This document shows positions 5 through 34,352 of a DNA stretch of 34,352 bases, piece by piece. Both the position numbers and the translations under genes were made by a program. Origin of the DNA: Bacteroidota bacterium (GTDB lineage: Bacteria; Bacteroidota; Bacteroidia; Flavobacteriales_D; Sanyastnellaceae); the NCBI GenBank assembly GCA_016868835.1, contig VGFR01000008.1:1-34352 (forward strand). The letters run 5' to 3'. Within the stretch, counting starts at the first letter, position 1. Each line of letters starts with the position of its first letter. The notes beneath the pieces are model-generated. The model saw only the letters and a list, made by a program, of their open reading frames with translations, had not been told where the DNA came from and did not search any database.

Positions 5-2602
5 ATGCTCGATATTTCTACCCAACTTCTGAAAGAAAACTCAAAAGACATTTTTCACCAACTGCAAAAACTTTCTCTTTCAGATTACCAGCAAATTCGG
101 AAAAAACTATTCAATAGACAAGAAGTACTTTTTGCACCCATTGCCAATAAAATTGCCTCTGCTCTGGAAGAATTAGACCGCGTTGGAATTACTCCGAAAC
201 AAATTTATTTCGGGGGAAGCGGAAGCTATACTTTTTTAACACGCATTCTTACAGGGAATTTCGAGCCTCCCGGTCCTCGACTTCAAGAGACTATTGCTAA
301 AGACTGGGTGAAGAAAAAAGGCGAATACCCAGCATTGGATTCGCGTGCAGCCCTGCTTACCGAAGCTGCTCAATGTGGTATGGATTGGATAGAAAGTAAG
401 GAACTAAAAGAATTTCGACGCATAGAAAAAATACTTCCTCATGTCTTTACCACTGGACTTTTAAGCAAGCTATTCGACATTTCTGTTCGATTGAAAAATG
501 AGGAAAATTTTCTGTTAATCAATGACTTTCACATCATTGTTTCAGAAATTGTACAACAAAGCCCTGCACCGTTTATTTATGAACGAGCTGGAGAGAGGTA
601 CAATCATTTGCTAATAGATGAGTTTCAGGATACATCAGAAATGCAATGGAAAAACTTTCTACCGCTCATTGAAAATTCATTAGCAGAAAATCATTTCAAT
701 TTACTTGTTGGTGATGGTAAGCAGAGTATTTACAGGTGGAGAAATGGCAATGTTGAACAGTTCGTTCAGTTACCTCAATTGCATGATCAAGCTTCTGTTC
801 TTCTTCAAGAAAAAATTAAACATGCCTACGAAGATGACAATTTAAACACCAACCGCAGAAGCGGTAAAACAATCATTGATTTTAACACTTGGCTTTATGA
901 TCAAATGCAAGCGAAACTGCCCGCATTTCAGAAAGTCTATCATGGTCACCAGCAACTGCATCACCGCGATTTCAACGGATTGGTTAAAACAGAAATCGTA
1001 AATTTTGGAAAGCGTGAACCCAACAGAGCTCGCATATTACAGGGAATCTACGAGGCAATACAAGATTGTTTGAAAGATGGTTATTCATACGGAGACATTG
1101 CCATTCTTACTAGAAAAGGTAAATCTGAGAGCACCCTTATTTCTGAATATCTCATGGATGTGTCAGGTGGCGAAATTCCATTAATGACCGAAGATAGTTT
1201 TTTACTGAAAAATAGTCGATCCGTTTTACTCATCATGGCTTGTATTCGATACTTAGCCAAACCCAATGAGGCTTTTTATCAATTCAATTTAATTGAAAAT
1301 ATTTGCGCTTCATTTCCTGAGAGGTTCAATTATGAAGAGATCATATCTACCTATAGTAGGCCCGTAAAAAATCCGGAAGGAAAAAAATATCTTAAGGGAA
1401 AACTGGAATTTCTTGTTAAAGAATTTCTTCAAACCCATTACCCCAAATTTTTAAGTGATCATCACTTTTATTCGCATCCATTCGAATCCATTCAAAATTT
1501 AATTCGATTGTTTAATCTGTCCTTTGACATGTATTTGGAATGTTTCGAAAATCAAATGCTACAACTATCGCATAGAAATGGAATGGGATTTTTAGAAATT
1601 GTACAGTGGTGGACAGAAAATGAAAATAAACTTTATGTAACCAACACACAGAAGCAAGAAGCCATTCGCATTTTAACGGTTCACAAAAGCAAAGGGCTTC
1701 AATTTCCTGTTGTAATTTTTCCCAAATTCGGAACGAAAATTCCAACACAATCCATTTGGGTAGAAGCTCCTTCAGTGGTTCATCCGTTTGAATCAGGACT
1801 CATTTCATTCACTCCTGCTGTCAACAGTAAAGAGTCCGATTTAGAAGAGGAGCAAGTTGAGAACAGTAAATTATTCCTAGATGAACTCAATGGGCTATAC
1901 GTTGCCACCACACGACCAGAAGATCGGCTGTATTTGTTTGTTGAGGTAAGCTCGGGCAATAACAGTGGTGCGCACCATGCACTAATAGAATCATTATTAA
2001 AACATGGAAATAATGAGCCTGTCTTGACCTGGGGAAATTCGGATCAGAAAGAAATAAAAAAAGAAAAAACTTCAACTCAATCTACACAAACACTTATTGG
2101 TACCCGAAGTAAAATTGAACTCCCAAATCTGAGATACAAAGAGCAAACGAAGCGCACGCTAGATAACATTGAGCACCTTCGTGTTGGAAATGCCTTTCAT
2201 GCATGCATGGAAAACATTCAAACTAAAAAAGACGCTGACGGTATATGCAAACAATTTTTAATGCAAGAAAACTTATCCATTTCAGATAAAAAAATACTCG
2301 AAGATCTACTGCAGAATGCCTTGACACTTCCCGTTTTTGATGCACTATTCAATACTTCGGCTGAAATAAAAACAGAGATTGATATTCGCTATGCTACTAC
2401 GCTATCTGTAAGACCAGACCGAATCTTATTTTTCTCAGATCGGGTAGAAGTATATGATTTCAAAACAGGAAACACCAAGAAAGATGATCATCTCAATCAA
2501 GTGAAAACCTATATGAAATACCTAAGTGATATCACCACACTGCCTGTAACAGGCTATTTGGCTTACGTGCAACTGAAAGAGCTTATTGCTGTCCAGCCAT
2601 AA
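5..2602 (+). CDS. UvrD/RecB-family (AddA-like) helicase-nuclease, 5'-truncated by window edge
   Basis: Motif II LLIDEFQDTSEMQW, motif III LLVGDGKQSIYRWR, motif V ILTVHKSKGLQFPVVIFP, motif VI LYVATTRPEDRLYLF; C-terminal RecB-like nuclease RPDRI...VYDFKTG...NQVKTY. Walker A is absent, so the N-terminus probably lies outside the window. Confidence 0.88.
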   Translation: MLDISTQLLKENSKDIFHQLQKLSLSDYQQIRKKLFNRQEVLFAPIANKIASALEELDRVGITPKQIYFGGSGSYTFLTRILTGNFEPPGPRLQETIAKDWVKKKGEYPALDSRAALLTEAAQCGMDWIESKELKEFRRIEKILPHVFTTGLLSKLFDISVRLKNEENFLLINDFHIIVSEIVQQSPAPFIYERAGERYNHLLIDEFQDTSEMQWKNFLPLIENSLAENHFNLLVGDGKQSIYRWRNGNVEQFVQLPQLHDQASVLLQEKIKHAYEDDNLNTNRRSGKTIIDFNTWLYDQMQAKLPAFQKVYHGHQQLHHRDFNGLVKTEIVNFGKREPNRARILQGIYEAIQDCLKDGYSYGDIAILTRKGKSESTLISEYLMDVSGGEIPLMTEDSFLLKNSRSVLLIMACIRYLAKPNEAFYQFNLIENICASFPERFNYEEIISTYSRPVKNPEGKKYLKGKLEFLVKEFLQTHYPKFLSDHHFYSHPFESIQNLIRLFNLSFDMYLECFENQMLQLSHRNGMGFLEIVQWWTENENKLYVTNTQKQEAIRILTVHKSKGLQFPVVIFPKFGTKIPTQSIWVEAPSVVHPFESGLISFTPAVNSKESDLEEEQVENSKLFLDELNGLYVATTRPEDRLYLFVEVSSGNNSGAHHALIESLLKHGNNEPVLTWGNSDQKEIKKEKTSTQSTQTLIGTRSKIELPNLRYKEQTKRTLDNIEHLRVGNAFHACMENIQTKKDADGICKQFLMQENLSISDKKILEDLLQNALTLPVFDALFNTSAEIKTEIDIRYATTLSVRPDRILFFSDRVEVYDFKTGNTKKDDHLNQVKTYMKYLSDITTLPVTGYLAYVQLKELIAVQP

Positions 2603-3878
2603 GCGCTTCAATCTCTTCCACCTCCAATGGGAAGTTTGCGAATAAATCACGGTTTCCATTTTCAGTAATAACAATGTTATTTTCTAAGCGAATACCGAGA
2701 TTTTCTTCAAGGATGTAAATACCTGGTTCAACAGTGAATACATTTCCTACTTCAATGGGTTTATTCCAATTGCCAACGTCATGTACGTCAAGGCCCAAGA
2801 AATGCGAAGTTCCATGCATGAAATATTTTTTGTACGCAGGCCATGCTGGATTCTGATTTTTCACCTCATCAGCAGAAATTAATTTCAAATCAACTAACTC
2901 TTTGGTCATCATTTCGCCAACCGCTGAATGATATTCTGCTAACATAACTCCTGGTTTCAAAAAAGCTGTTGCTCCTTTCATAACCCGAAGAACGGCATTG
3001 TAAACATCTTTCTGACGTTGGGTGAATTTTCCACTAACGGGCAAACAACGGGTCATATCTGCATTGTATCCACCATACTCGGCACCTACATCTAAAAGAA
3101 TTACATCGCCATCTGCACACGCATGATCATTTTCAATGTAATGCAATACACATGCATTTCTCCCAGACGCAACAATTGGTGTATAGGCAAAGCCTCTTGA
3201 TCCATTACTTAGGAATTCATGAGCAAACTCGGCTTCAATTTGATACTCCATAACACCGGGTTTTAACATACCCATGACCCTGCGCAATCCTTGGTTTGTT
3301 AAATCAATGGCACGTTGAATTTGGTCTATTTCTTCCTTGTCCTTCACGGCTCTCAGAGCATGCATGATTGGAGCACTGCGTTCAACAGCGTGGTGCGGAT
3401 ATTTTGCTCTTACATGTTTCGAGAGACGCATCTCACGTGTCTCTACTTCAATACTTGCGCGAGAATGTTCATTGCTATTCAAATAAAGACATGCTGCTTC
3501 ACCAATAACCGTATGAAGTATCTTTTCGAAATCTTGTGACCAATAGATACTTGCAATACCCGTTCTTTCGGTGGCTTGTGCTTTCGATAATTTAGCACCT
3601 TCCCAAATGGCAATGTGTTCGTTGGTTTCACGAACAAATAATATTTCTCTATGTGCAGGGTTGTGCGCCTCAGGAAACAGAACAAGCATTGTTTCTTCCT
3701 GATCTACACCCGTCAAATAAAAAATATCGCTAAGTTGCTTAAATGGCAAGGTACCATCGGCACTGGAAGGGTAAATATCATTACTTGTAAAAACCGCCAA
3801 GCCTTTGCTTTTCATTTGCTTCGCGAAGTTGGCTCTGTTCTTCTGATAGAAAGAACTTGATAAGGCTGGGTATCTCAT
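2583..3878 (-). CDS. pepP: Xaa-Pro aminopeptidase (aminopeptidase P, M24B)
   Basis: N-terminal AMP_N-like region (RANFAKQMKSKGLAVF), metallopeptidase motifs LLDVGAEYGGYNADMTRCLPVSG, HGTSHFLGLDVHDVG, FTVEPGIYI, GIRLENNIVIT. Confidence 0.93.
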   Translation of the reverse strand: MRYPALSSSFYQKNRANFAKQMKSKGLAVFTSNDIYPSSADGTLPFKQLSDIFYLTGVDQEETMLVLFPEAHNPAHREILFVRETNEHIAIWEGAKLSKAQATERTGIASIYWSQDFEKILHTVIGEAACLYLNSNEHSRASIEVETREMRLSKHVRAKYPHHAVERSAPIMHALRAVKDKEEIDQIQRAIDLTNQGLRRVMGMLKPGVMEYQIEAEFAHEFLSNGSRGFAYTPIVASGRNACVLHYIENDHACADGDVILLDVGAEYGGYNADMTRCLPVSGKFTQRQKDVYNAVLRVMKGATAFLKPGVMLAEYHSAVGEMMTKELVDLKLISADEVKNQNPAWPAYKKYFMHGTSHFLGLDVHDVGNWNKPIEVGNVFTVEPGIYILEENLGIRLENNIVITENGNRDLFANFPLEVEEIEALMAGQQ

Positions 3879-3882
3879 ACGT

Positions 3883-5931
3883 TTATAATTTCACAAAACG
3901 AAACGCACTTCCCGATCCAGCCTGATTGAACGGATGAATGGTATATACGCCTGTTGATAAATCAGAAATTTCCAAAGTATTCCAAACATTCAAACTAAGT
4001 GAAGAAATGGTTTTTACCGTTCTTCCTGTAGCATCTTGAATGGCCATGTGTGTGGTTCCTTCACTTAAAGCATTCACACGAACACGGATTTCATTGTTTG
4101 CAGGATTCGGGTACACTTCGGTAGAAGCAGCAACAAGACTAGAATTCTCATCTACACCCACCAATTGCACACATGATCCATAAACATAGCTTGGTAAGCG
4201 CTCTGCATTGTTGTTTACAATATCTACAACTTCGTCAATACAAATTTCATTGCCTTCAAAATTTGATAAGTACACACGACACAATTGCGTTGGATTTGAA
4301 CTGTTTTCAATTTTATTCCCATACACATTCGACACAACAAAAACACCTTCAGAGAAAGCGTTGTAACCCACTTCGCAACTGAAAATTGTTGGATCTACCA
4401 AACTAGAAACGCCTACTACGTCTGCACCAGAGATTTCAAATTGATAACCGGTCACATCATCCACGGTGCTCATTAATTCCACATCAATATAACCATCTGC
4501 TGCACTGAAATTCGAAATGGACAAACCTGCTGCTGTATTCACGTTGACAATGTTACGAGGGAAGTCGCATGCATTTGTAATTGTTGATCCGCCATTTCCA
4601 CCATTCATGCACCATTGCGCCAAATAAATATCATACACTGAAATCTCACCGTTTGCGTTCAAATCATTACATGTTGTTGCCTGAATGGTTTCCTGAGCCA
4701 ATATGCCGAGATAGGAAACAACGTCTGATCCATTGAGGTCACTGTCAGCGTTCACGTCACCAAATACAGACTGACCATTACAAACACCGTTGCAATCCAA
4801 TTCTGCGGAACCATTGATATTTCCTGCACAATCAATATAAGTAGGGCAATCTGGTATCAATTGGAAAGTGGGTACTCCGTTGTTCCAAAAAATTTCCATG
4901 CAAATCGATACGGCGTTGTTTTGAGTATTGCTTTCATATCGACCCAACGCATCGGGCAAATAGTACGGATTTACAAGGGCAACGAATCGATACTGTCCTG
5001 CAGGAATTTCAGTAATATCTAGCCATTGGCATTGTGTTCCAGCACCATAAATATCATAGCAACCGGAAGATATTCCCATATCTGAACAATTGTATTGTCC
5101 CATTCCACATAAGTCCATGACACAGAATCCATTCTTATGCCCTACAGGAACCAAATCGCCATTATCATCCATTAATCTATAGTCACCATATCCTTCATAG
5201 TGGGTATGGCCGTGACAATTCACAACACTAAACATTTCTGGATTTGCAGATGGGTTTCCAATATAGTAGTCTGCTTCACCTATGTTGTCAATTTTTGAGC
5301 TGAATCCGATGATCCAACGATTTCCGTATCCTGTAACACAACCCTCTTGAACATCGCACTCCGCAGCCGAAATTTGGCCAACGTACAAAGAATTTACGAG
5401 AGCTAAGCTATCAAATCGCAGATCGGGCTGAGAGCAGGCTTCACTTGGAAAGTAAACACAAGAACCATCATCAGCAGTTGCCATTGGATTGAAGTTACAT
5501 GCCGTAGCATCTGTGCAACCGTAAATCTGACCAATGTATGTGATATTGAAATTGACAGAAGCGGTGCAGCTCTGATAATAGTCTCCTATGCGCACATAAT
5601 AGGTTGTTCCGGCAATTAGATTTACTTCAAGATGCGCTTGCAATCCGCAGAAATCGTCATTGTATGCATAGGTTCCTTCAGCAAATTCGGTTGGATTCGC
5701 AACGCATGAAGAATAGATCCAAATCTTCGTATCACACGAGTTCGTTCCACAAGTGGAGAATGCCGTAATTCCTGATTCTGTTGGGGTGTAGGTATACCAC
5801 GTATCTTCGAAAGTACCTGTATAATCACCTGGGCTAGCAAGTGGAATTGGATTATCACATGTAGTACCTTGTTGAGAAAAAGAGAGGCTCCAAGACAAAA
5901 CAAGTCCGAGCAGAAGGAATAATTTTTTCAT
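3883..5931 (-). CDS. Secreted T9SS-targeted protein with lysyl oxidase domain, dockerin-like and cohesin-like modules
   Basis: Signal peptide MKKLFLLLGLVLSWSLSFSQ; PPC-like N-terminal domain; GCTDATACNFNPMATADDGSCVY motif; LOX signatures CHGHTHYEGYGDYRLMDDNGDLVPVGHKNGFC and SSGCYDIYGAGTQCQWLDITEIPAGQYRFVALVNP; dockerin-like GDVNADSDLNGSDVVSYL and CNDLNANGEISVYDI; C-terminal VYPNPANNEIRV...GVYTI...FRFVKL typical of type A T9SS sorting domains. Confidence 0.85.
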   Translation of the reverse strand: MKKLFLLLGLVLSWSLSFSQQGTTCDNPIPLASPGDYTGTFEDTWYTYTPTESGITAFSTCGTNSCDTKIWIYSSCVANPTEFAEGTYAYNDDFCGLQAHLEVNLIAGTTYYVRIGDYYQSCTASVNFNITYIGQIYGCTDATACNFNPMATADDGSCVYFPSEACSQPDLRFDSLALVNSLYVGQISAAECDVQEGCVTGYGNRWIIGFSSKIDNIGEADYYIGNPSANPEMFSVVNCHGHTHYEGYGDYRLMDDNGDLVPVGHKNGFCVMDLCGMGQYNCSDMGISSGCYDIYGAGTQCQWLDITEIPAGQYRFVALVNPYYLPDALGRYESNTQNNAVSICMEIFWNNGVPTFQLIPDCPTYIDCAGNINGSAELDCNGVCNGQSVFGDVNADSDLNGSDVVSYLGILAQETIQATTCNDLNANGEISVYDIYLAQWCMNGGNGGSTITNACDFPRNIVNVNTAAGLSISNFSAADGYIDVELMSTVDDVTGYQFEISGADVVGVSSLVDPTIFSCEVGYNAFSEGVFVVSNVYGNKIENSSNPTQLCRVYLSNFEGNEICIDEVVDIVNNNAERLPSYVYGSCVQLVGVDENSSLVAASTEVYPNPANNEIRVRVNALSEGTTHMAIQDATGRTVKTISSLSLNVWNTLEISDLSTGVYTIHPFNQAGSGSAFRFVKL
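4885..5430 (-). other. Lysyl oxidase-like catalytic domain (residues about 168-349 of the 3883..5931 protein)
   Basis: Ordered HxHxH (residues 240/242/244), GHK Lys266, CYDIY Tyr295 and the CQWLDIT...NPYYL...NN block, collinear with animal LOX catalytic domains. Confidence 0.82.
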
Positions 5932-5990: not shown

Positions 5991-6704
5991 TTATTTAGGT
6001 AGATTCGTTTCAGCTTTTTTTTTCTTTCTATTCAATTCCCATTTATATCCAGACAGAACAACAAAATCCATATCCCCATTTCCAAGATCTTTTTGAATAA
6101 GATATCCTACTGAAAAATTCGACGTCTTATTGATTTTGAATTTTAAATTGATTTGACTACGCCAATCACTATAGACGTAAGTTATCGGCTCGAAGAATAA
6201 CTCATGTGAAAGTTGCACATTCACATTTTTTAAACCAGAAAATTCGAACGTAAACTTCTCTCTCCATGTTGATTTTAAATCTATATCTGTACCGTAAGTA
6301 GTGGTAGTTTGGTAGCGTGTAGTGGAAGATAATTTAAAATTGTTTGCTGGAAGTATCAATTGAAGACCATATGACCATCTCTGTCTAAAATTATACTCTC
6401 CACTACTTCTTTTACCACCCAATCGGTGTTCTATGGAAGTTGCAATGTATTTATTCCATTTTTTAGATGTCCCAAAGTCAGAAAAAAATCCGTTGACACG
6501 AGTCATGTTCTCATCCAGTCGCAACTCGGGCGCAGCATAGACATTCCAATTCTTTAATGCTTTGTTGTTCGATAAAAAAACTTCTTCCAACTCAAAAGAA
6601 AAAGATGAACCAACCCACAATCCAGCATCTTTCTGCTGGGCAAACGTGTTGCTTACAGATGATAGAATTAGAATGAATAACCAAGCAAATCTATTGCGTA
6701 TCAT
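5991..6704 (-). CDS. DUF2490-like outer-membrane/secreted protein
   Basis: Signal peptide; pattern DAGLWVGSSFSFEL..., AAPELRLDEN..., RHxW-like RQRWSYGLQLILP, alternating beta-strand segments; resembles the Bacteroidota DUF2490 family. Confidence 0.65.
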   Translation of the reverse strand: MIRNRFAWLFILILSSVSNTFAQQKDAGLWVGSSFSFELEEVFLSNNKALKNWNVYAAPELRLDENMTRVNGFFSDFGTSKKWNKYIATSIEHRLGGKRSSGEYNFRQRWSYGLQLILPANNFKLSSTTRYQTTTTYGTDIDLKSTWREKFTFEFSGLKNVNVQLSHELFFEPITYVYSDWRSQINLKFKINKTSNFSVGYLIQKDLGNGDMDFVVLSGYKWELNRKKKKAETNLPK

Positions 6705-7107
6705 AAATGGTTAAATCCGAAAGTTCAATTTGATCTTGATTGTCTATTAACTCAACCTCTTTCAGAATGACCATTCGCGAAGGGTCGATCACAGGTGGGT
6801 TTACTCCGGTGGTGTCTTTGCTATACGTGTATATGGTATACTTGCCTCTGCGTAGATTTCTAAATTCAAATTCACCATTGTAATTCGTTACCACCTTATC
6901 ATCTGGAGATATGTGACCTCCATAAACAATATATACATCTTGATCTGCCGCTGGAACCGTATAGATAGCCGTGTTTGGATTTGTTAGCACGACCCTTACT
7001 TCTTTATTTACTTTACCTGAGATGATGCCTGAACCACCTAAACCAGGATCTTTTACACACGACATCAAAGTGATTGATGCCAAAAGAATTAAAAAAATAT
7101 ATCTCAT
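6691..7107 (-). CDS. Small lipoprotein with carboxypeptidase-regulatory/Ig-like fold
   Basis: Lipobox LMSC in MRYIFLILLASITLMSC; NYNGEFEFRNLRRGKYTIYTYSKD resembles CarboxypepD_reg-like domains. Overlaps the next gene by 14 nt. Confidence 0.65.
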   Translation of the reverse strand: MRYIFLILLASITLMSCVKDPGLGGSGIISGKVNKEVRVVLTNPNTAIYTVPAADQDVYIVYGGHISPDDKVVTNYNGEFEFRNLRRGKYTIYTYSKDTTGVNPPVIDPSRMVILKEVELIDNQDQIELSDLTIYDTQ

Positions 7108-27974: not shown

Positions 27975-28211
27975 TTACTTGGCGTGAGCTGAAATATATT
28001 CTACTGCCTGACCAACGGTAACAATCTTCTCAGCTTGATCGTCTGGTATGGCAATATTGAATTCTTTTTCAAATTCCATAATTAACTCAACTACATCCAA
28101 AGAATCAGCACCTAAATCATTTGTGAAGCTAGCCTCTGGAGTTACAACTGATGCTTCAACTCCTAATTTGTCAACGATAATTTCCGTTACTTTTTGTGCA
28201 ATTTCTGACAT
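27975..28211 (-). CDS. acpP: Acyl carrier protein
   Basis: [17 protein letters not shown]...[41 protein letters not shown]. Start refined from 28262 to ATG 28211. Confidence 0.97.
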
Positions 28212-28243
28212 TGTAATACTATTTAAATGGTTAAATACGCTCG

Positions 28244-28251
28244 CAAAAGTA
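28244..28251 (-). promoter_or_regulatory. Putative -7 box (TACTTTTG) of the acpP-fabF-rnc-kbl operon
   Basis: Minus strand TACTTTTG, 32 nt upstream of the acpP ATG, preceded by a cluster of A-tracts; no clear -33 TTG. Confidence 0.42.
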
Positions 28252-28386
28252 CAACTTTTCACTTTGCACCCGTTTTTTTTTCATTTTTCCACACTCTTTT
28301 TTTTCAACACTCTCATTTTCAGATATTTAAAATTTCATTCCAAAAATAAATTCTCCCCTCTTGTATGTAAATTGCACCCAAATTCC

Positions 28387-29307
28387 ATGAAAACCTCTTC
28401 TAAAAAGCATATACTCTTAATTGGAGCAGGTGGCCTGTGTCATGCCGCCTTGCCCTCAATTTTGGATTTACCTTTTGAAAAAATGACGTTGATGGATGGT
28501 GATGTAGTTACTGAAGAACCTTTGCCCAGACAATGGCTTTTCACGAAAAATGATTTGGATCAGTTCAAAGTTGTGGTGCTTCAGAAATGGATTTCAGACA
28601 GAAACTCGAACAAGTCTGTTGTTGCTCTTCCAAAATATTTCCATGAGGAAATTGATTTTCGCCCTGATCTTGTTTTTGATTTCACTGATCGTCTGAGTTC
28701 GAAACAGTCCATTATGAAATTCTGCCAAAAGCATAAAATCCCGCTTATTCATGCTGCTTCGCAAAAAAATCACGGAGCAGTCGCCTTTCTTCACCCTGAA
28801 TCTTCACTGTTTCATCACTTGTTAGCAGATTTAGAGGGAAAGGACAACACTGAAATGTCTTGCAACGATGGAGTAACAACCTCTGTGGTTGGCACCATAG
28901 GCATGCAAGCTGCGCATTTGGGTTGGTTATATTTTGAAGACGTTATCATTCAAAATGGCTACAGCATGTTTGATGGTAAAAGCAATCAATGGGAGACCTT
29001 CAAACTACATCAAGGAATGGCAGATAAGCCAACATTCGATCATTTGATTACAAGCGTGGATCAATTCATTTCCATTCAACATAAATACCAAACTACAATT
29101 CTTCATTTGGGAGAACATGCGGTATTTCCATCATGTGAACCCGATGAATTACAAGCTGAATTATTGAGGGGTGGAAATGTTATTCTTATTTGTAAAAATG
29201 GAATGGAGGCATCAACAGCCGTGGCGCATTTCTCAAAAAAATTCAAAGACAAACATATATTTGCTTTCGCCGGACCGGCAGATTCACTGATACCAAGTAT
29301 TGAATAA
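28387..29307 (+). CDS. ThiF/MoeB/HesA-like adenylyltransferase with C-terminal rhodanese-like domain
   Basis: KHILLIGAGGLCHAALPSIL, MTLMDGDVVTEEPLPRQWLFTKNDL, DLVFDFTDRLSSKQSIMKFC, EMSCNDGVTTSVVGTIGMQAA; C-terminal rhodanese loop NVILICKNGMEASTAVAHFSKKF. Start refined from 28048 (antisense to acpP) to ATG 28387. Confidence 0.78.
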   Translation: MKTSSKKHILLIGAGGLCHAALPSILDLPFEKMTLMDGDVVTEEPLPRQWLFTKNDLDQFKVVVLQKWISDRNSNKSVVALPKYFHEEIDFRPDLVFDFTDRLSSKQSIMKFCQKHKIPLIHAASQKNHGAVAFLHPESSLFHHLLADLEGKDNTEMSCNDGVTTSVVGTIGMQAAHLGWLYFEDVIIQNGYSMFDGKSNQWETFKLHQGMADKPTFDHLITSVDQFISIQHKYQTTILHLGEHAVFPSCEPDELQAELLRGGNVILICKNGMEASTAVAHFSKKFKDKHIFAFAGPADSLIPSIE

Positions 29308-30582
29308 ATGAGCGCATTTCAAACAGGTCTTTCTTTCCTCAAACAACGAAAAAGGTGTAGAAATGCGACTGACTTTCGATGGGTATACGAGAGATCCATA
29401 AATGATTTATCCTATCGTCTTCCCGATGCGGCAAAATTCGATCCTTGGATTGGATTTAAAGAATTGTATCGCATTATTAAAAGGAAAAAAAACAGGCAAT
29501 GTCAACTACAGAACGGACATCTCATGCTTGTTTCAACCTCGAATCAAATACAAGTTGCCAGAGAATATGTATTGGCGAATTTAAAATCGGCTGAAGCACT
29601 ACATGTCATTTCGCGTGAAGATTTAAAAATATCACCTTCATTTCGTTTTCTCTTGTTTTCAATCTTCGTTTCTGTCCAATGTATTTGGTCAAGAAATCGG
29701 TTAAACCTTGCCCTTCAGATTCGCGAGGTTATGGAGTGGGCTTGCGTATTGAAATTGATGCATGAGAATCATTTAAAATCATTTATCGATTTCACACCAT
29801 TCGAAAAAGATGCAAACCTGTTGTCACTTTTGTTGATGGAGCAAGGTATTCATATAATGAAAATTCCATCACCTGGTCCATTGAGTGCTCACCATACGCA
29901 TCTGATTGCAAATACTGTTGTTTGTTCTTCCGCCTATCATTTGGAGGAAATAGCACAGTTTACTAATTGGACCTACAACAGCCTTTTGCATTGGCCCCCG
30001 GAGCAATACCATACGTATGAACACCTTTATCAGATTAATCAACAACCCCCGGCAAACTCAATTGCCTTTTACAGTCACGGGGAATGGGTTCGCAGAGAAG
30101 AAGGGCATGCTGATCCTGGTTTAGGTATTTTAGAAAATGAAGCGATTATTTTGAGTGAGCTCCGCACTTTCCTTAAGGAAAATAACCACACTACTCTAGT
30201 CATTTATCCTCATCCGAAAGAGAGGGAACGAAAAGACATGCTAGCACATTACACGCAACTTCTTTCAGACTGTTCATTTCATATTTTCGATGGAGAGACC
30301 CCTACGGCATGGAATTTTCATGAGGAAGACATTGCCATAATGGCCTATTCCACTTTACTCTTTGAACGTTTATCACTCGGATTTAAAATGCTTTTTGTGT
30401 CAACACAATCGAGTCCGTTCCCACTTTCAACCAGTTCATTAAATAACATTTGTATTCGTTCAGAAGCAGAATTTCAGAAGAAATTAAAAAATGCCCTTCA
30501 GGAAAGTCAAATTGAATTTTTCGAAAATAATCAACTCCAAACCTACAGACTTTCACATTTCCTCGAGGCGAAAAATGGCTAA
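29308..30582 (+). CDS. Putative surface-carbohydrate biosynthesis protein (possible GT-B/capsule-type glycosyltransferase)
   Basis: AFYSHGEWVRREEG, TTLVIYPHPKERERKDMLAHY, DIAIMAYSTLLFERLSLGFKMLFV resemble polysaccharide-synthesis GT-B folds; starts directly after the ThiF-like stop (TAA|ATG) and precedes sugar-nucleotide genes. Confidence 0.5.
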   Translation: MSAFQTGLSFLKQRKRCRNATDFRWVYERSINDLSYRLPDAAKFDPWIGFKELYRIIKRKKNRQCQLQNGHLMLVSTSNQIQVAREYVLANLKSAEALHVISREDLKISPSFRFLLFSIFVSVQCIWSRNRLNLALQIREVMEWACVLKLMHENHLKSFIDFTPFEKDANLLSLLLMEQGIHIMKIPSPGPLSAHHTHLIANTVVCSSAYHLEEIAQFTNWTYNSLLHWPPEQYHTYEHLYQINQQPPANSIAFYSHGEWVRREEGHADPGLGILENEAIILSELRTFLKENNHTTLVIYPHPKERERKDMLAHYTQLLSDCSFHIFDGETPTAWNFHEEDIAIMAYSTLLFERLSLGFKMLFVSTQSSPFPLSTSSLNNICIRSEAEFQKKLKNALQESQIEFFENNQLQTYRLSHFLEAKNG

Positions 30583-30612
30583 GATTAGAAAATGATTGTT
30601 ACTTTGCAGCAC

Positions 30613-31623
30613 ATGAAAGTAAAATTTGCTGTTGTTGGATGTGGAAGTATTGGTAAGCGTCACATAGCCGTTTTGGATGCTGACCCCAATGTTGAAATTG
30701 TGGGTATCTGCGATATTGAGCTTACTCGTGTTCAAGAGTTATCAGAACTCTACAACCACATTCCATACTATACCAACTTTGAAGACTTGATGGCAGTATG
30801 TGATGCAGATGTCATAAACATAGTAACACCCCACGCCTTACATAAAACTCAATCTATTCAGGCCTTGAATAATGGATTTCATGTTTTGGTTGAAAAGCCC
30901 ATGTCATTGAATGTGCGTGATGCACAGGAAATGAATGATGCGGCTAAAGCCAATGGTAAAAAGTTATGGGTTGTAAAACAGAATAGATTCAACGTACCCG
31001 TTTCACTCACACACCAAGCCATTCGTTCTGGTTGGTTAGGTCGAATTTTCATGGTCAAGTGTGACGTACTATGGAATCGTTATCAAGGGTATTATGACGA
31101 TTCAAGTTGGAGAGGAAAAATACAAGAAGAAGGTGGTGCTCTTTTCACTCAGGCCAGTCATTTCATTGACTTACTTATTTGGTGGTGTGGAGAAGTGAAA
31201 AGTGTGAAAGCGAAAGCTGCAACACAAAACCACAATATAGAAACTGAAGATTCAGGAGTTGCCGTAATGGAATTTGAGAATGGTGCATTGGGATCTTTAA
31301 CTTGGACTACTTGTGTTTACGAAAAAAACTACGAAGGAAGCATTACTGTCATTGGCGAAAAAGGAACCATTAAAATAGGAGGTGCCTATTTGAATAAAAT
31401 TGAATTTTGGAATGTAGAAAATCAACCACTACCAACAGATATTGACTTCAATGATAAACCAAATGCATATGGTAAATACCAAGGCACAAGCAGTAATCAT
31501 GATAAAGTTATTGAGAGTATTGCAAAAGAAATACAAACTGGTATAGGCCAGAATGTGGAAGGGACAGAGGGTTTAAGAAGCATTGATGCGATAGAAAAAA
31601 TTTACGCAAATATTTTGCAATGA
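30613..31623 (+). CDS. Gfo/Idh/MocA oxidoreductase (WbpB/WlbA-like)
   Basis: MKVKFAVVGCGSIGKRHIAVLDADPNVEIVGICD, NIVTPHALHKTQSIQALNNGFHVLVEKPMSL, WVVKQNRFNVPVSL, EEGGALFTQASHFIDLLIWWCGEVKSV. The track start is 30592; ATG 30613 is preferred. Confidence 0.9.
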   Translation: MKVKFAVVGCGSIGKRHIAVLDADPNVEIVGICDIELTRVQELSELYNHIPYYTNFEDLMAVCDADVINIVTPHALHKTQSIQALNNGFHVLVEKPMSLNVRDAQEMNDAAKANGKKLWVVKQNRFNVPVSLTHQAIRSGWLGRIFMVKCDVLWNRYQGYYDDSSWRGKIQEEGGALFTQASHFIDLLIWWCGEVKSVKAKAATQNHNIETEDSGVAVMEFENGALGSLTWTTCVYEKNYEGSITVIGEKGTIKIGGAYLNKIEFWNVENQPLPTDIDFNDKPNAYGKYQGTSSNHDKVIESIAKEIQTGIGQNVEGTEGLRSIDAIEKIYANILQ

Positions 31624-32078
31624 GTGATGTAAAAAAATATCAATCGCAATTACGCGATGTCAAACTGGGGTCAGGAGTGACCGTTGTAGAACCTGTGAAT
31701 GCATACGAGTGTGAGATTGGAAACGATGTATTTGTTGGTCCATTCGTAGAGATTCAGAAAGGGGTTGTTATTGGGAATAGAACCCGCATTCAATCACACA
31801 CCTTTATTTGTGAACTCGTGACTATTGGAGAAGACTGCTTCATTGCTCACGGTGTAATGTTCACTAATGATTTATTCAAAGAGGGTGGTCCAAGTGGGAA
31901 TGATAAATCGAAATGGGGAGAAACAAAAATTGGAAATCATGTCTCCATTGGATCAAACGCAACCCTACTGCCCGTCACTATATGTGACCATGTTGTAATT
32001 GGTGCAGGGGCGGTTGTTACTAAAAACATAACAGAATCTGGAATTTATGCTGGGAATCCAGCAAAAAAAATACGCTAA
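31620..32078 (+). CDS. Left-handed beta-helix N-acetyltransferase (WbpD-like)
   Basis: Hexapeptide repeats: CEIGNDVFVGPFVEIQKGVVIGNRTRIQSHTFICELVTIGEDCFIAHGVMFTND...KIGNHVSIGSNATLLPVTICDHVVIGAGAVVTKNI; ATGA overlap with the upstream gene. Confidence 0.9.
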   Translation: MSDVKKYQSQLRDVKLGSGVTVVEPVNAYECEIGNDVFVGPFVEIQKGVVIGNRTRIQSHTFICELVTIGEDCFIAHGVMFTNDLFKEGGPSGNDKSKWGETKIGNHVSIGSNATLLPVTICDHVVIGAGAVVTKNITESGIYAGNPAKKIR

Positions 32079-33169
32079 TGAACATACCATTTGTAGATCT
32101 AAAAGCACAATATAAAAGCTTACTTCCAGAGATGGATGAAGCCATTATGCATGCCATTCACACTACTGCGTTTATAGCAGGAGGGCCCGCAGATACTTTT
32201 GAGAAAGCGTATGCCTCGTATATGGGCATGACGCACACCATTGCATGTGCCAATGGAACAGATAGCCTTGAAATTCTTCTAAAAGCTATGGGAATTGGAA
32301 CAGGTGATGAAGTTTTGGTTCCAGCTATTTCATGGATTAGTACTGCAGAATCTGTTACAACTGCTGGCGGTACTCCAGTCTTTGTAGATGTTGATGATGA
32401 TTTGTTAATTGATTTGAATTTAATTGAGCAGCACATTACTCCTCGCACCAAAGCCATTATTCCAGTGCACCTTTACGGTAATCCTGTAGATATGAATAGA
32501 ATCATGGAGATTGCAACAAAACACGGGCTTCACGTTTTGGAAGATTGCGCTCAATCTCATGCCGCCACAATACATGGTAAAAAAGCAGGAACTTTTGGAC
32601 ACGCGTCAAGCTTTAGTTTCTATCCCGGAAAAAATTTAGGAGCTTATGGCGATGCGGGAGGAATGGTGACAAACAATGATGAAATTGCCCGAATAGCCAG
32701 AGCCATCGCTAATCATGGACAAGAAGGAAAACACAATCATTTGCTTGAAGGTAGAAATTCAAGAATGGACGGTATTCAAGCAGCCGTGCTGAATACGAAA
32801 CTTCCACATCTTGAAAAATGGACTGACATGCGTATCAACAATGCCCGCATATACAGTGATTTGCTTCAGGCCTCTGTTCATAAACCAAGAGAAAGAGAAG
32901 GATTTAAGCATGTTTATCATCTCTATGTTATTCAATGTGACAACAGAGACGAACTTGCACTTCGTTTGAAAGAGAAGGGAATTGACACCGCCGTTCACTA
33001 CCCAATTCCAATGCCTTTCATGCCATGCTATTCTAGATTCAATCATTCTGAAATTGATTTCCCCAATGCGGCAAAAATTGCAAAGCGAATAATTTCTTTA
33101 CCCATGTATGCCGAATTAACACAAGAACAAATCGCTTACGTTGCAGAGCATGTAAATGCCAACTACTAA
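32078..33169 (+). CDS. DegT/DnrJ/EryC1/StrS sugar aminotransferase (WbpE-like)
   Basis: IPFVDLKAQYKSLLPEMDEAI, CANGTDSLEILLKAMGIGTGDEVLVPAISWISTAESV, HVLEDCAQSHAATIHGKKAGTFGHASSFSFYPGKNLGAYGDAGG, RNSRMDGIQAAVL; TAATG overlap with the upstream gene. Confidence 0.94.
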   Translation: MNIPFVDLKAQYKSLLPEMDEAIMHAIHTTAFIAGGPADTFEKAYASYMGMTHTIACANGTDSLEILLKAMGIGTGDEVLVPAISWISTAESVTTAGGTPVFVDVDDDLLIDLNLIEQHITPRTKAIIPVHLYGNPVDMNRIMEIATKHGLHVLEDCAQSHAATIHGKKAGTFGHASSFSFYPGKNLGAYGDAGGMVTNNDEIARIARAIANHGQEGKHNHLLEGRNSRMDGIQAAVLNTKLPHLEKWTDMRINNARIYSDLLQASVHKPREREGFKHVYHLYVIQCDNRDELALRLKEKGIDTAVHYPIPMPFMPCYSRFNHSEIDFPNAAKIAKRIISLPMYAELTQEQIAYVAEHVNANY

Positions 33170-34352
33170 AGAACATATCATCATTGTCAACTACGACTTT
33201 CCTCCGAACAAGGGAATTGGTGGAAGGCGGTGGGCAAAATTAGCCAAAGCATTTGCAGAGAAGAATTACCATGTTCACGTTATAAAAGCTGATTCTATAT
33301 CAGATACTGAAACTTCTGTTTGGACAGACGATGTTCGTCATAAAAATATACAAGTGTACTCCTTGCCAAGAAAGTACCCGAATATACTCTTGAGCACACC
33401 CCAAAACTTTTTGGAGAAAATTCAATACCGAGCGTCCCTTCGGTCCGTACTCAAGAAACATCAAGGTACCCCTTACGATATAAGTCTTGGATGGAATCAT
33501 TCGCTTTCTGAAAAATTAAATGAAATAACTAAGAATCATCCGGTTCATTGGATTTTTGCTACAGGTGCGCCGTGGGAAATGCTAAGAGCATGTGCCACAT
33601 TTAAAGAAAAATTTGATTACCTTAAGCTTTGGGTTGATCTTCGTGATCCTTGGCTCAATGCACGTAATTATGGCATCACCCATTTATCTGAACTTAAGCA
33701 AAAGGAAGAGGAAGAAAAAGCAAAGAAGGTGGTAGAGCAAGCCACAATAATTTCTGCTCCAGCTCAAGAAATTTTTGAGCCGTTTATTTCCAAAGGGTGG
33801 TTGTCAAGCTCAGACAAAAAACTATTTCATCTTAAACATTTCTATTCAGACAAGCGTATGGAAATACGCAAATCACCGAGAAATACGCAATCAATACAAT
33901 TGATTTATGGCGGTGAAATTTATCTCGATACCGAAAAGTATTTTGAAGAGATTGCCCAAGATTTAGACCTACTACGAAAAGAGTATCCAAAAAAATATCA
34001 GGAACTAACCATACAGATTCATTCTTCGAGCGCGGACAAACTTCAACCTATTTTCAAATCACATCCAACAGTACAACTATCAGACTCCATAGGTAAAAGC
34101 ATAGAGCGCAAAATATCACATGCCCAATGGTGTGTTATTCTATTGGCTGAGCACAATCAAGATTTTTTCACTACAAAATATTTCGAATACCAACAATTTG
34201 GAATACCCTACCTCTTTATTGGGCCTGATCTTAGTTTGGTAAGAAAGAGAATTGTTGAGGAAAACCGTGGAACCGATTGGAAAAACTTTTTCAATCATTA
34301 CCTTAACGGAGAAGCTATTGATCATACCACCTTCAATCAGATAGTAAGTGAA
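33156..34352 (+). CDS. GT4-like glycosyltransferase, 3'-truncated by window edge (not in the supplied ORF track)
   Basis: Translated by hand: ATG 33156, MPTTKEHIIIVNYDFPPNKGIGGRRWAKLAKAFAEKNYHVHVI..., no stop in 399 codons to the window end; LKLWVDLRDPWLN and YFEYQQFGIPYLFIGP are typical of GT-B donor/acceptor regions. Overlaps the aminotransferase gene by 14 nt. Confidence 0.78.
   Translation, partial: MPTTKEHIIIVNYDFPPNKGIGGRRWAKLAKAFAEKNYHVHVIKADSISDTETSVWTDDVRHKNIQVYSLPRKYPNILLSTPQNFLEKIQYRASLRSVLKKHQGTPYDISLGWNHSLSEKLNEITKNHPVHWIFATGAPWEMLRACATFKEKFDYLKLWVDLRDPWLNARNYGITHLSELKQKEEEEKAKKVVEQATIISAPAQEIFEPFISKGWLSSSDKKLFHLKHFYSDKRMEIRKSPRNTQSIQLIYGGEIYLDTEKYFEEIAQDLDLLRKEYPKKYQELTIQIHSSSADKLQPIFKSHPTVQLSDSIGKSIERKISHAQWCVILLAEHNQDFFTTKYFEYQQFGIPYLFIGPDLSLVRKRIVEENRGTDWKNFFNHYLNGEAIDHTTFNQIVSE

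Follow-up and report, generated by a model that had tools for sequence, protein, structure and literature searches.

The stretch of DNA analysed here, termed the window, comprises 34,352 nucleotides from an uncultured lake bacterium of the Bacteroidota (contig VGFR01000008.1 of assembly GCA_016868835.1, positions 1 to 34,352), and the product of its open reading frame 3883-5931, the window protein, is a true member of the lysyl oxidase (LOX) family. Animal lysyl oxidase is the enzyme that hardens collagen and elastin. We consider it probable that the bacterial protein is a copper/quinone amine oxidase of this family acting at the cell surface or outside the cell, with protein lysines as likely substrate, that it is fixed there through dockerin-like and cohesin-like domains, and that the copy in the window has been horizontally exchanged. 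The parts of the gene are as follows.

3883-5931, minus strand: lysyl oxidase protein gene, 682 residues (open reading frame with ATG start; end-to-end homologues at 37-82% identity over about 650 residues)
5875-5931, minus strand: signal peptide, residues 1-19, MKKLFLLLGLVLSWSLSFS (judged by eye from the sequence)
5527-5874, minus strand: N-terminal disulfide-rich domain, residues 20-135, without confident family (alignment A4)
5452-5523, minus strand: Cys/Asp-rich repeat CTDATACNFNPMATADDGSC, residues 137-160 (sequence and conservation in A4)
4885-5430, minus strand: lysyl oxidase catalytic domain, residues 168-349 (PF01186, AlphaFold2, Foldseek)
5200-5214, minus strand: predicted copper ligands H240-x-H242-x-H244 (alignment to LOXL2)
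5134-5136, minus strand: K266, predicted Lys half of the lysyl tyrosylquinone (LTQ) cofactor (alignment to LOXL2)
5047-5049, minus strand: Y295, predicted Tyr half of the LTQ cofactor (alignment to LOXL2)
4612-4773, minus strand: dockerin-like domain, residues 387-440 (homologue profile, weak Dockerin_1 match, two-helix prediction)
4162-4548, minus strand: cohesin-like beta-sandwich, about residues 462-590 (AlphaFold2 and Foldseek)
3886-4116, minus strand: type IX secretion system (T9SS) type A C-terminal sorting domain, residues 606-682 (PF18962 and TIGR04183)

The lysyl oxidase domain and its catalytic residues

An earlier note on this DNA, made from the letters alone, had read residues 168-349 (positions 4885-5430) as an animal-type LOX domain, and had proposed a PF01186 search and an AlphaFold comparison with human LOXL2 as checks. 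Both agree with that reading. PF01186 (Lysyl_oxidase) matches residues 198-342 with E=1.3e-24, at 87.4 bits well above the cut-off of 20.4, and phmmer matches the window protein to LOXL2 (5ze3) with E=4e-19, the two being 36% identical across 168 aligned residues. An AlphaFold2 model built from 45 domains of the family has a mean predicted local distance difference test score (pLDDT) of 87.9 and a predicted template modelling score (pTM) of 0.83, and Foldseek against the PDB returned LOXL2 5ze3 as its sole close match (E 8.3e-15, template modelling score 0.79 on the query), all others having E of 0.01 or more. A large Lys-Tyr distance in such a model, which the note had listed as refuting, would not speak against LOX, because the cofactor pair lies 16.6 Å apart in the LOXL2 precursor crystal (5ZE3; PMC9694262).

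In the alignment, where LOXL2 numbering is anchored on C625, H240, H242 and H244 fall on LOXL2 H626, H628 and H630, K266 falls on K653, and Y295, the second Tyr of CYDIY, falls on Y689. The copper histidines and the LTQ pair that the note had named, Y295 of its CYxxY motif included, are therefore exact LOXL2 equivalents, and they and the peptides quoted with them sit exactly at the positions given. H265, just before the cofactor Lys, aligns with LOXL2 H652; the His is kept in the window copy, while most LOX of the family have Phe. Seven cysteines (C192, C198, C239, C270, C282, C291 and C301) occupy LOXL2 cysteine positions and C275 is one residue off C663, these eight positions making up four of the five LOXL2 disulfides (PMC9180022). 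Across all 45 domains of the family, and across 117 of 117 aligned domains with LOXL2 included, the five catalytic residues (three His, Lys and Tyr) never vary. This invariance does not reflect mere closeness of the sequences, because adjacent positions are freely variable: 77 of the aligned domains have Phe at residue 265 and 37 have His, and residue 292 has six states. As judged from this alignment, all essential copper and cofactor residues are intact in the window LOX.

A secreted four-part architecture

The window LOX is by its predicted tail a T9SS type A cargo, as the earlier note had proposed: PF18962 matches residues 606-666 (3.1e-10, 40.6 bits against a cut-off of 27) and TIGR04183 also scores above threshold (1.1e-6, 28.5 bits against 23), and the same genome encodes the SprA translocon (TIGR04189, 1943 bits) and SprB repeats. 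Ahead of the tail, positions 28-81 of the homologue profile A3, which cover the region of residues 387-440, match PDB dockerins with E 0.0037, and a two-helix structure is predicted for this segment. We call it dockerin-like only, because PF00404 (Dockerin_1) gives 9.3-11.9 bits on single sequences, below the cut-off of 22.9, with a weak match in 35 of 50 members, while the homologue profile does reach the PDB dockerins. It is followed by a beta-sandwich, seen in an AlphaFold2 model of residues 360-605 (pLDDT 87.5, pTM 0.82), for which the best Foldseek match is the cohesin 2ccl_A (E 3.9e-6) and most of the 22 matches below 1e-3 are cohesins; the cohesin fold is present by the model, without a sequence-level match to cohesins. 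In the N-terminal domain, Pfam matches are weak (GBD_T9SS_assoc in 8 of 30 members, best E 0.002). Since about 50 proteins align with the window protein from end to end and the dockerin and cohesin matches lie behind LOX, the order LOX, dockerin-like domain, cohesin-like domain and T9SS tail is the standard design of these full-length relatives. Three loci (L047:9044-11380, L057:3802-6123 and L071:8706-11045) encode secreted LOX that end in dockerin-like repeats, without a recognised T9SS tail.

In the mechanism we propose, the signal peptide would direct the protein across the inner membrane, and the T9SS would carry it across the outer membrane, remove the tail and anchor or release the enzyme. 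By analogy with LOXL2, copper bound at H240, H242 and H244 would drive the self-processing of K266 and Y295 into lysyl tyrosylquinone, and this cofactor would convert primary amines to aldehydes, releasing H2O2 and ammonia. Its most likely targets would be the lysine side chains of surface proteins, and the resulting aldehydes could then cross-link neighbouring chains. The dockerin-like and cohesin-like domains, whose fold is predicted, may pack together, either inside a single chain or across separate ones, and so hold the catalytic domain in place at the cell surface. Everything from copper loading and cofactor formation to amine oxidase activity, surface location, substrate and cross-linking is thus a step that we infer.

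Each part of this design has known counterparts. With the catalytic domain of human LOXL2 (5ZE3) the window protein shares the fold, the H-x-H-x-H motif, the cofactor Lys and Tyr and the eight disulfide cysteines, but it has no SRCR domains, H623 and H637 are replaced, and the dockerin-like, cohesin-like and T9SS parts are added. The haloarchaeal HTU-LOX, an active, copper-dependent amine oxidase that acts on lysine polymers and is sensitive to beta-aminopropionitrile (PMC6452851), also belongs to the prokaryotic LOX and has the three His as well as the Lys/Tyr pair; it differs in being archaeal and without T9SS, and no dockerin or cohesin has been described for it. Bacterial LOX, including those of Bacteroidetes, were reported by Grau-Bove et al. 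(2015), who found nearly all prokaryotic LOX to be LOX-only proteins with a signal peptide or membrane segment (PMC4448552); these belong to the same Pfam family, also lack the first His of the animal motif and keep the catalytic residues, but that study describes no protein of the LOX-dockerin-cohesin-T9SS design. Cellulosomal type I cohesin-dockerin pairs (1OHZ, 2CCL) have the same beta-sandwich fold and a similar duplicated calcium-loop segment in the dockerin, whereas here both halves are joined in one chain behind an oxidase rather than in scaffoldin and cellulase, with an identity of 8-14%.

Distribution and origin of the window copy

PF01186 occurs in 100 of the 114 genomes of the window's Bacteroidota family (45 of the 50 good ones, 18 of the 21 genera), and, within the rest of the order, in 36 of 185 genomes (13 with a strong match); in a phylum-wide sample it is found in 2 of about 394 further genomes, both weakly. 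A scan of genome contigs gave 548 relatives, and the 80 retained come almost all from Bacteroidota metagenome-assembled genomes (MAGs), many of them from lakes or wastewater. One locus, L143 (PBNL01000011.1), is labelled Euryarchaeota archaeon SP189, and its LOX and neighbours match the Bacteroidota genome G106, which marks it as a mislabelled MAG. Second, very divergent LOX-like proteins are encoded beside a normal LOX at L116:19788-20591, L126:19701-20591 and L114:15364-18018, those of L116 and L126 having the stretch NDIYSEGLDGMW (or NDIYQEGLDGMW) without the usual Cys; the three are possibly degenerate LOX paralogues.

The window's genome carries a second LOX within a 1475-residue protein on contig 25. 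In the tree this second copy groups with the other LOX of the family, and the window copy falls in a clade with other Bacteroidota LOX that has 100/100 support. The approximately unbiased test rejected a shared vertical descent of the window LOX and the family's LOX (p-AU 3e-57), for a group defined after the tree had been seen. The genes on both sides of the window copy are as follows.

2583-3878, minus strand: M24 Xaa-Pro aminopeptidase, one insertion flank (its start codon lies 4 nt downstream of the LOX stop)
5991-6704, minus strand: DUF2490 protein, the other insertion flank (PF10677; adjoins the aminopeptidase gene in G006, G008 and G010)
6691-7107, minus strand: small lipoprotein of 138 residues, next gene of the flanking block (open reading frame list and congener comparison)

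In these three congeners the DUF2490 and aminopeptidase genes are only 32 bases apart and form a clean empty site. In G000, G005 and G011 precisely this gap is occupied by LOX, and the G012 contig breaks off inside LOX. The window LOX is thus polymorphic in presence and absence and its kinship is non-vertical. A three-protein tree calls for at least two changes and is compatible with gain as well as loss. We infer that this copy came by horizontal exchange, transfer and direction alike, as an addition to the LOX native to the family. Because the same genes stand at this place in congeners without this LOX, the window copy's own neighbours say little about its function. Elsewhere in the window, at positions 28048-34352, genes for a ThiF-like protein, a Gfo/Idh/MocA oxidoreductase, a hexapeptide transferase and a DegT aminotransferase share one strand; they resemble an O-antigen-type cluster for surface sugars that the end of the contig truncates.

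A possible footprint of LOX, a low lysine content of secreted proteins, was considered and rejected, as it tracks ancestry and not LOX. Within the family, T9SS type A cargo contains 1.9% Lys where LOX is present, compared with 3.2-4.6% in genomes outside the family that lack LOX. However, family members without LOX are equally low (1.9%), and in other families LOX-positive genomes have 3.4% against 3.1% (p=0.66). Lysine is very scarce in the family's T9SS cargo, the window protein included, at about 2% and in some proteins below 1%, with a GC content of 38-57%; this trait follows the family.

Neighbourhoods of related genes, rival roles and meaning

The neighbourhoods of related LOX in other genera are more telling. 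In eight loci of five genera other than the window's (L055, L056, L058, L046, L061, L065, L066 and L069), the gene after one LOX paralogue of the family, in the same orientation, encodes a CotH kinase (PF08757, E 1e-33) with a CHU_C T9SS tail (PF13585). The two genes overlap or lie at most 16 bases apart in seven of these loci and are 147 bases apart in one; an S46 peptidase gene stands upstream of this paralogue. LOX and CotH kinase are possibly two extracellular protein-modifying enzymes made together. The other paralogue is oriented divergently to an SprB-repeat/CHU_C adhesin gene at a distance of 1-3 genes, and PorP/SprF often accompany it. By guilt by association in related genera, these neighbourhoods favour a link between LOX and the modification of secreted surface protein. 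The relatives' neighbourhoods held nothing specific for a host or algal matrix.

Other features of these loci were also recorded. In genus g20, LOX genes of both paralogue clades face each other on a single contig at a distance of about 6-9 kb (L045, L062, L063) or 4 kb (L064), which suggests an ancestral LOX pair. Genes for MbnP, a copper protein, and an MbnH-type di-haem protein immediately precede LOX in the same orientation at L089:7324-9145 and L090:731-2593, and MbnP/MbnH also occur near LOX in L037/L078, L075 and L104. As a copper partner of LOX, MbnP/MbnH was reduced to a weak lead, since MbnP is present in 111 of the 114 family genomes and the pair near the window LOX also stands in congeners without this LOX.

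The strongest rival to a protein-directed oxidase is an amine scavenger at the cell surface, deaminating small primary amines such as polyamines, free lysine and taurine for ammonium and carbon instead of cross-linking proteins. Substrates of the archaeal LOX include methylamine, cadaverine, glycine and taurine (PMC6452851), and the S46 dipeptidyl peptidase genes near the LOX-B paralogue and the M24 peptidase gene after the window copy would fit a nutritional role. Yet the M24 gene adjoins LOX only through the insertion of LOX there, and the ammonium would be freed outside the cell. Protein modification is favoured over amine feeding because of the tight LOX-CotH pairs, in which the kinase is itself T9SS cargo, and the adhesin and PorP neighbours, and we regard scavenging as unlikely, though well worth keeping in mind. 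A role as generator of H2O2 for competition or defence, with surface peroxide harming neighbours or grazers, is highly improbable: LOX chemistry necessarily yields H2O2 and di-haem MauG/MbnH-type proteins occur near several LOX genes, but the MbnP/MbnH linkage is unspecific, as described above, and no immunity or effector genes are found nearby.

Several observations weigh against a lysine-directed surface oxidase. No substrate protein was identified, though no genome-wide substrate search was made, and the surface proteins adjoining LOX are lysine-poor, with 0.6-1.2% Lys. The archaeal LOX has a relaxed specificity and oxidises small amines too (PMC6452851). The protein-directed role is drawn from paralogues elsewhere in the family, the window copy being a clean insert among unrelated genes. 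Finally, Val237 of the window LOX stands where the animal motif has its first His (human LOX H289, LOXL2 H623), and changing H623 cuts the cofactor yield of LOXL2 by more than half (PMC9694262). Bacterial LOX generally lack this His (PMC4448552), which thus does not define the wider LOX family. The same replacement could point to a catalytically dead LOX fold kept as a structural or binding domain, which we hold to be the least probable reading of all, as the three His, Lys and Tyr are kept in 117 of 117 sequences that are otherwise much diverged, hard to explain without catalysis, the H623 equivalent is missing from bacterial LOX generally, and the archaeal enzyme, a prokaryotic member, is active.

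Bacterial LOX, including those of Bacteroidetes (2015), and an active archaeal LOX (2019) are already known. A literature search for LOX with Bacteroidetes and T9SS found none, and as far as the literature was searched, the four-part secreted architecture, the near-universality in one family and the LOX-CotH pair appear to be new. The role of bacterial lysyl oxidases has been open since the 2015 report, and these three features make the question concretely testable; they also bear on the origin of the chemistry by which animals harden their matrix. A further, tentative idea, which we hold as a possibility rather than an expectation, is of a bacterial system for matrix maturation made up of LOX, the CotH-type extracellular kinase and T9SS adhesins. 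In it, surface proteins, once secreted, would be phosphorylated, their lysines oxidised and the chains covalently cross-linked by an enzyme held in a dockerin-cohesin clamp. If this is true, the system would be a bacterial counterpart of the hardening of the animal extracellular matrix.
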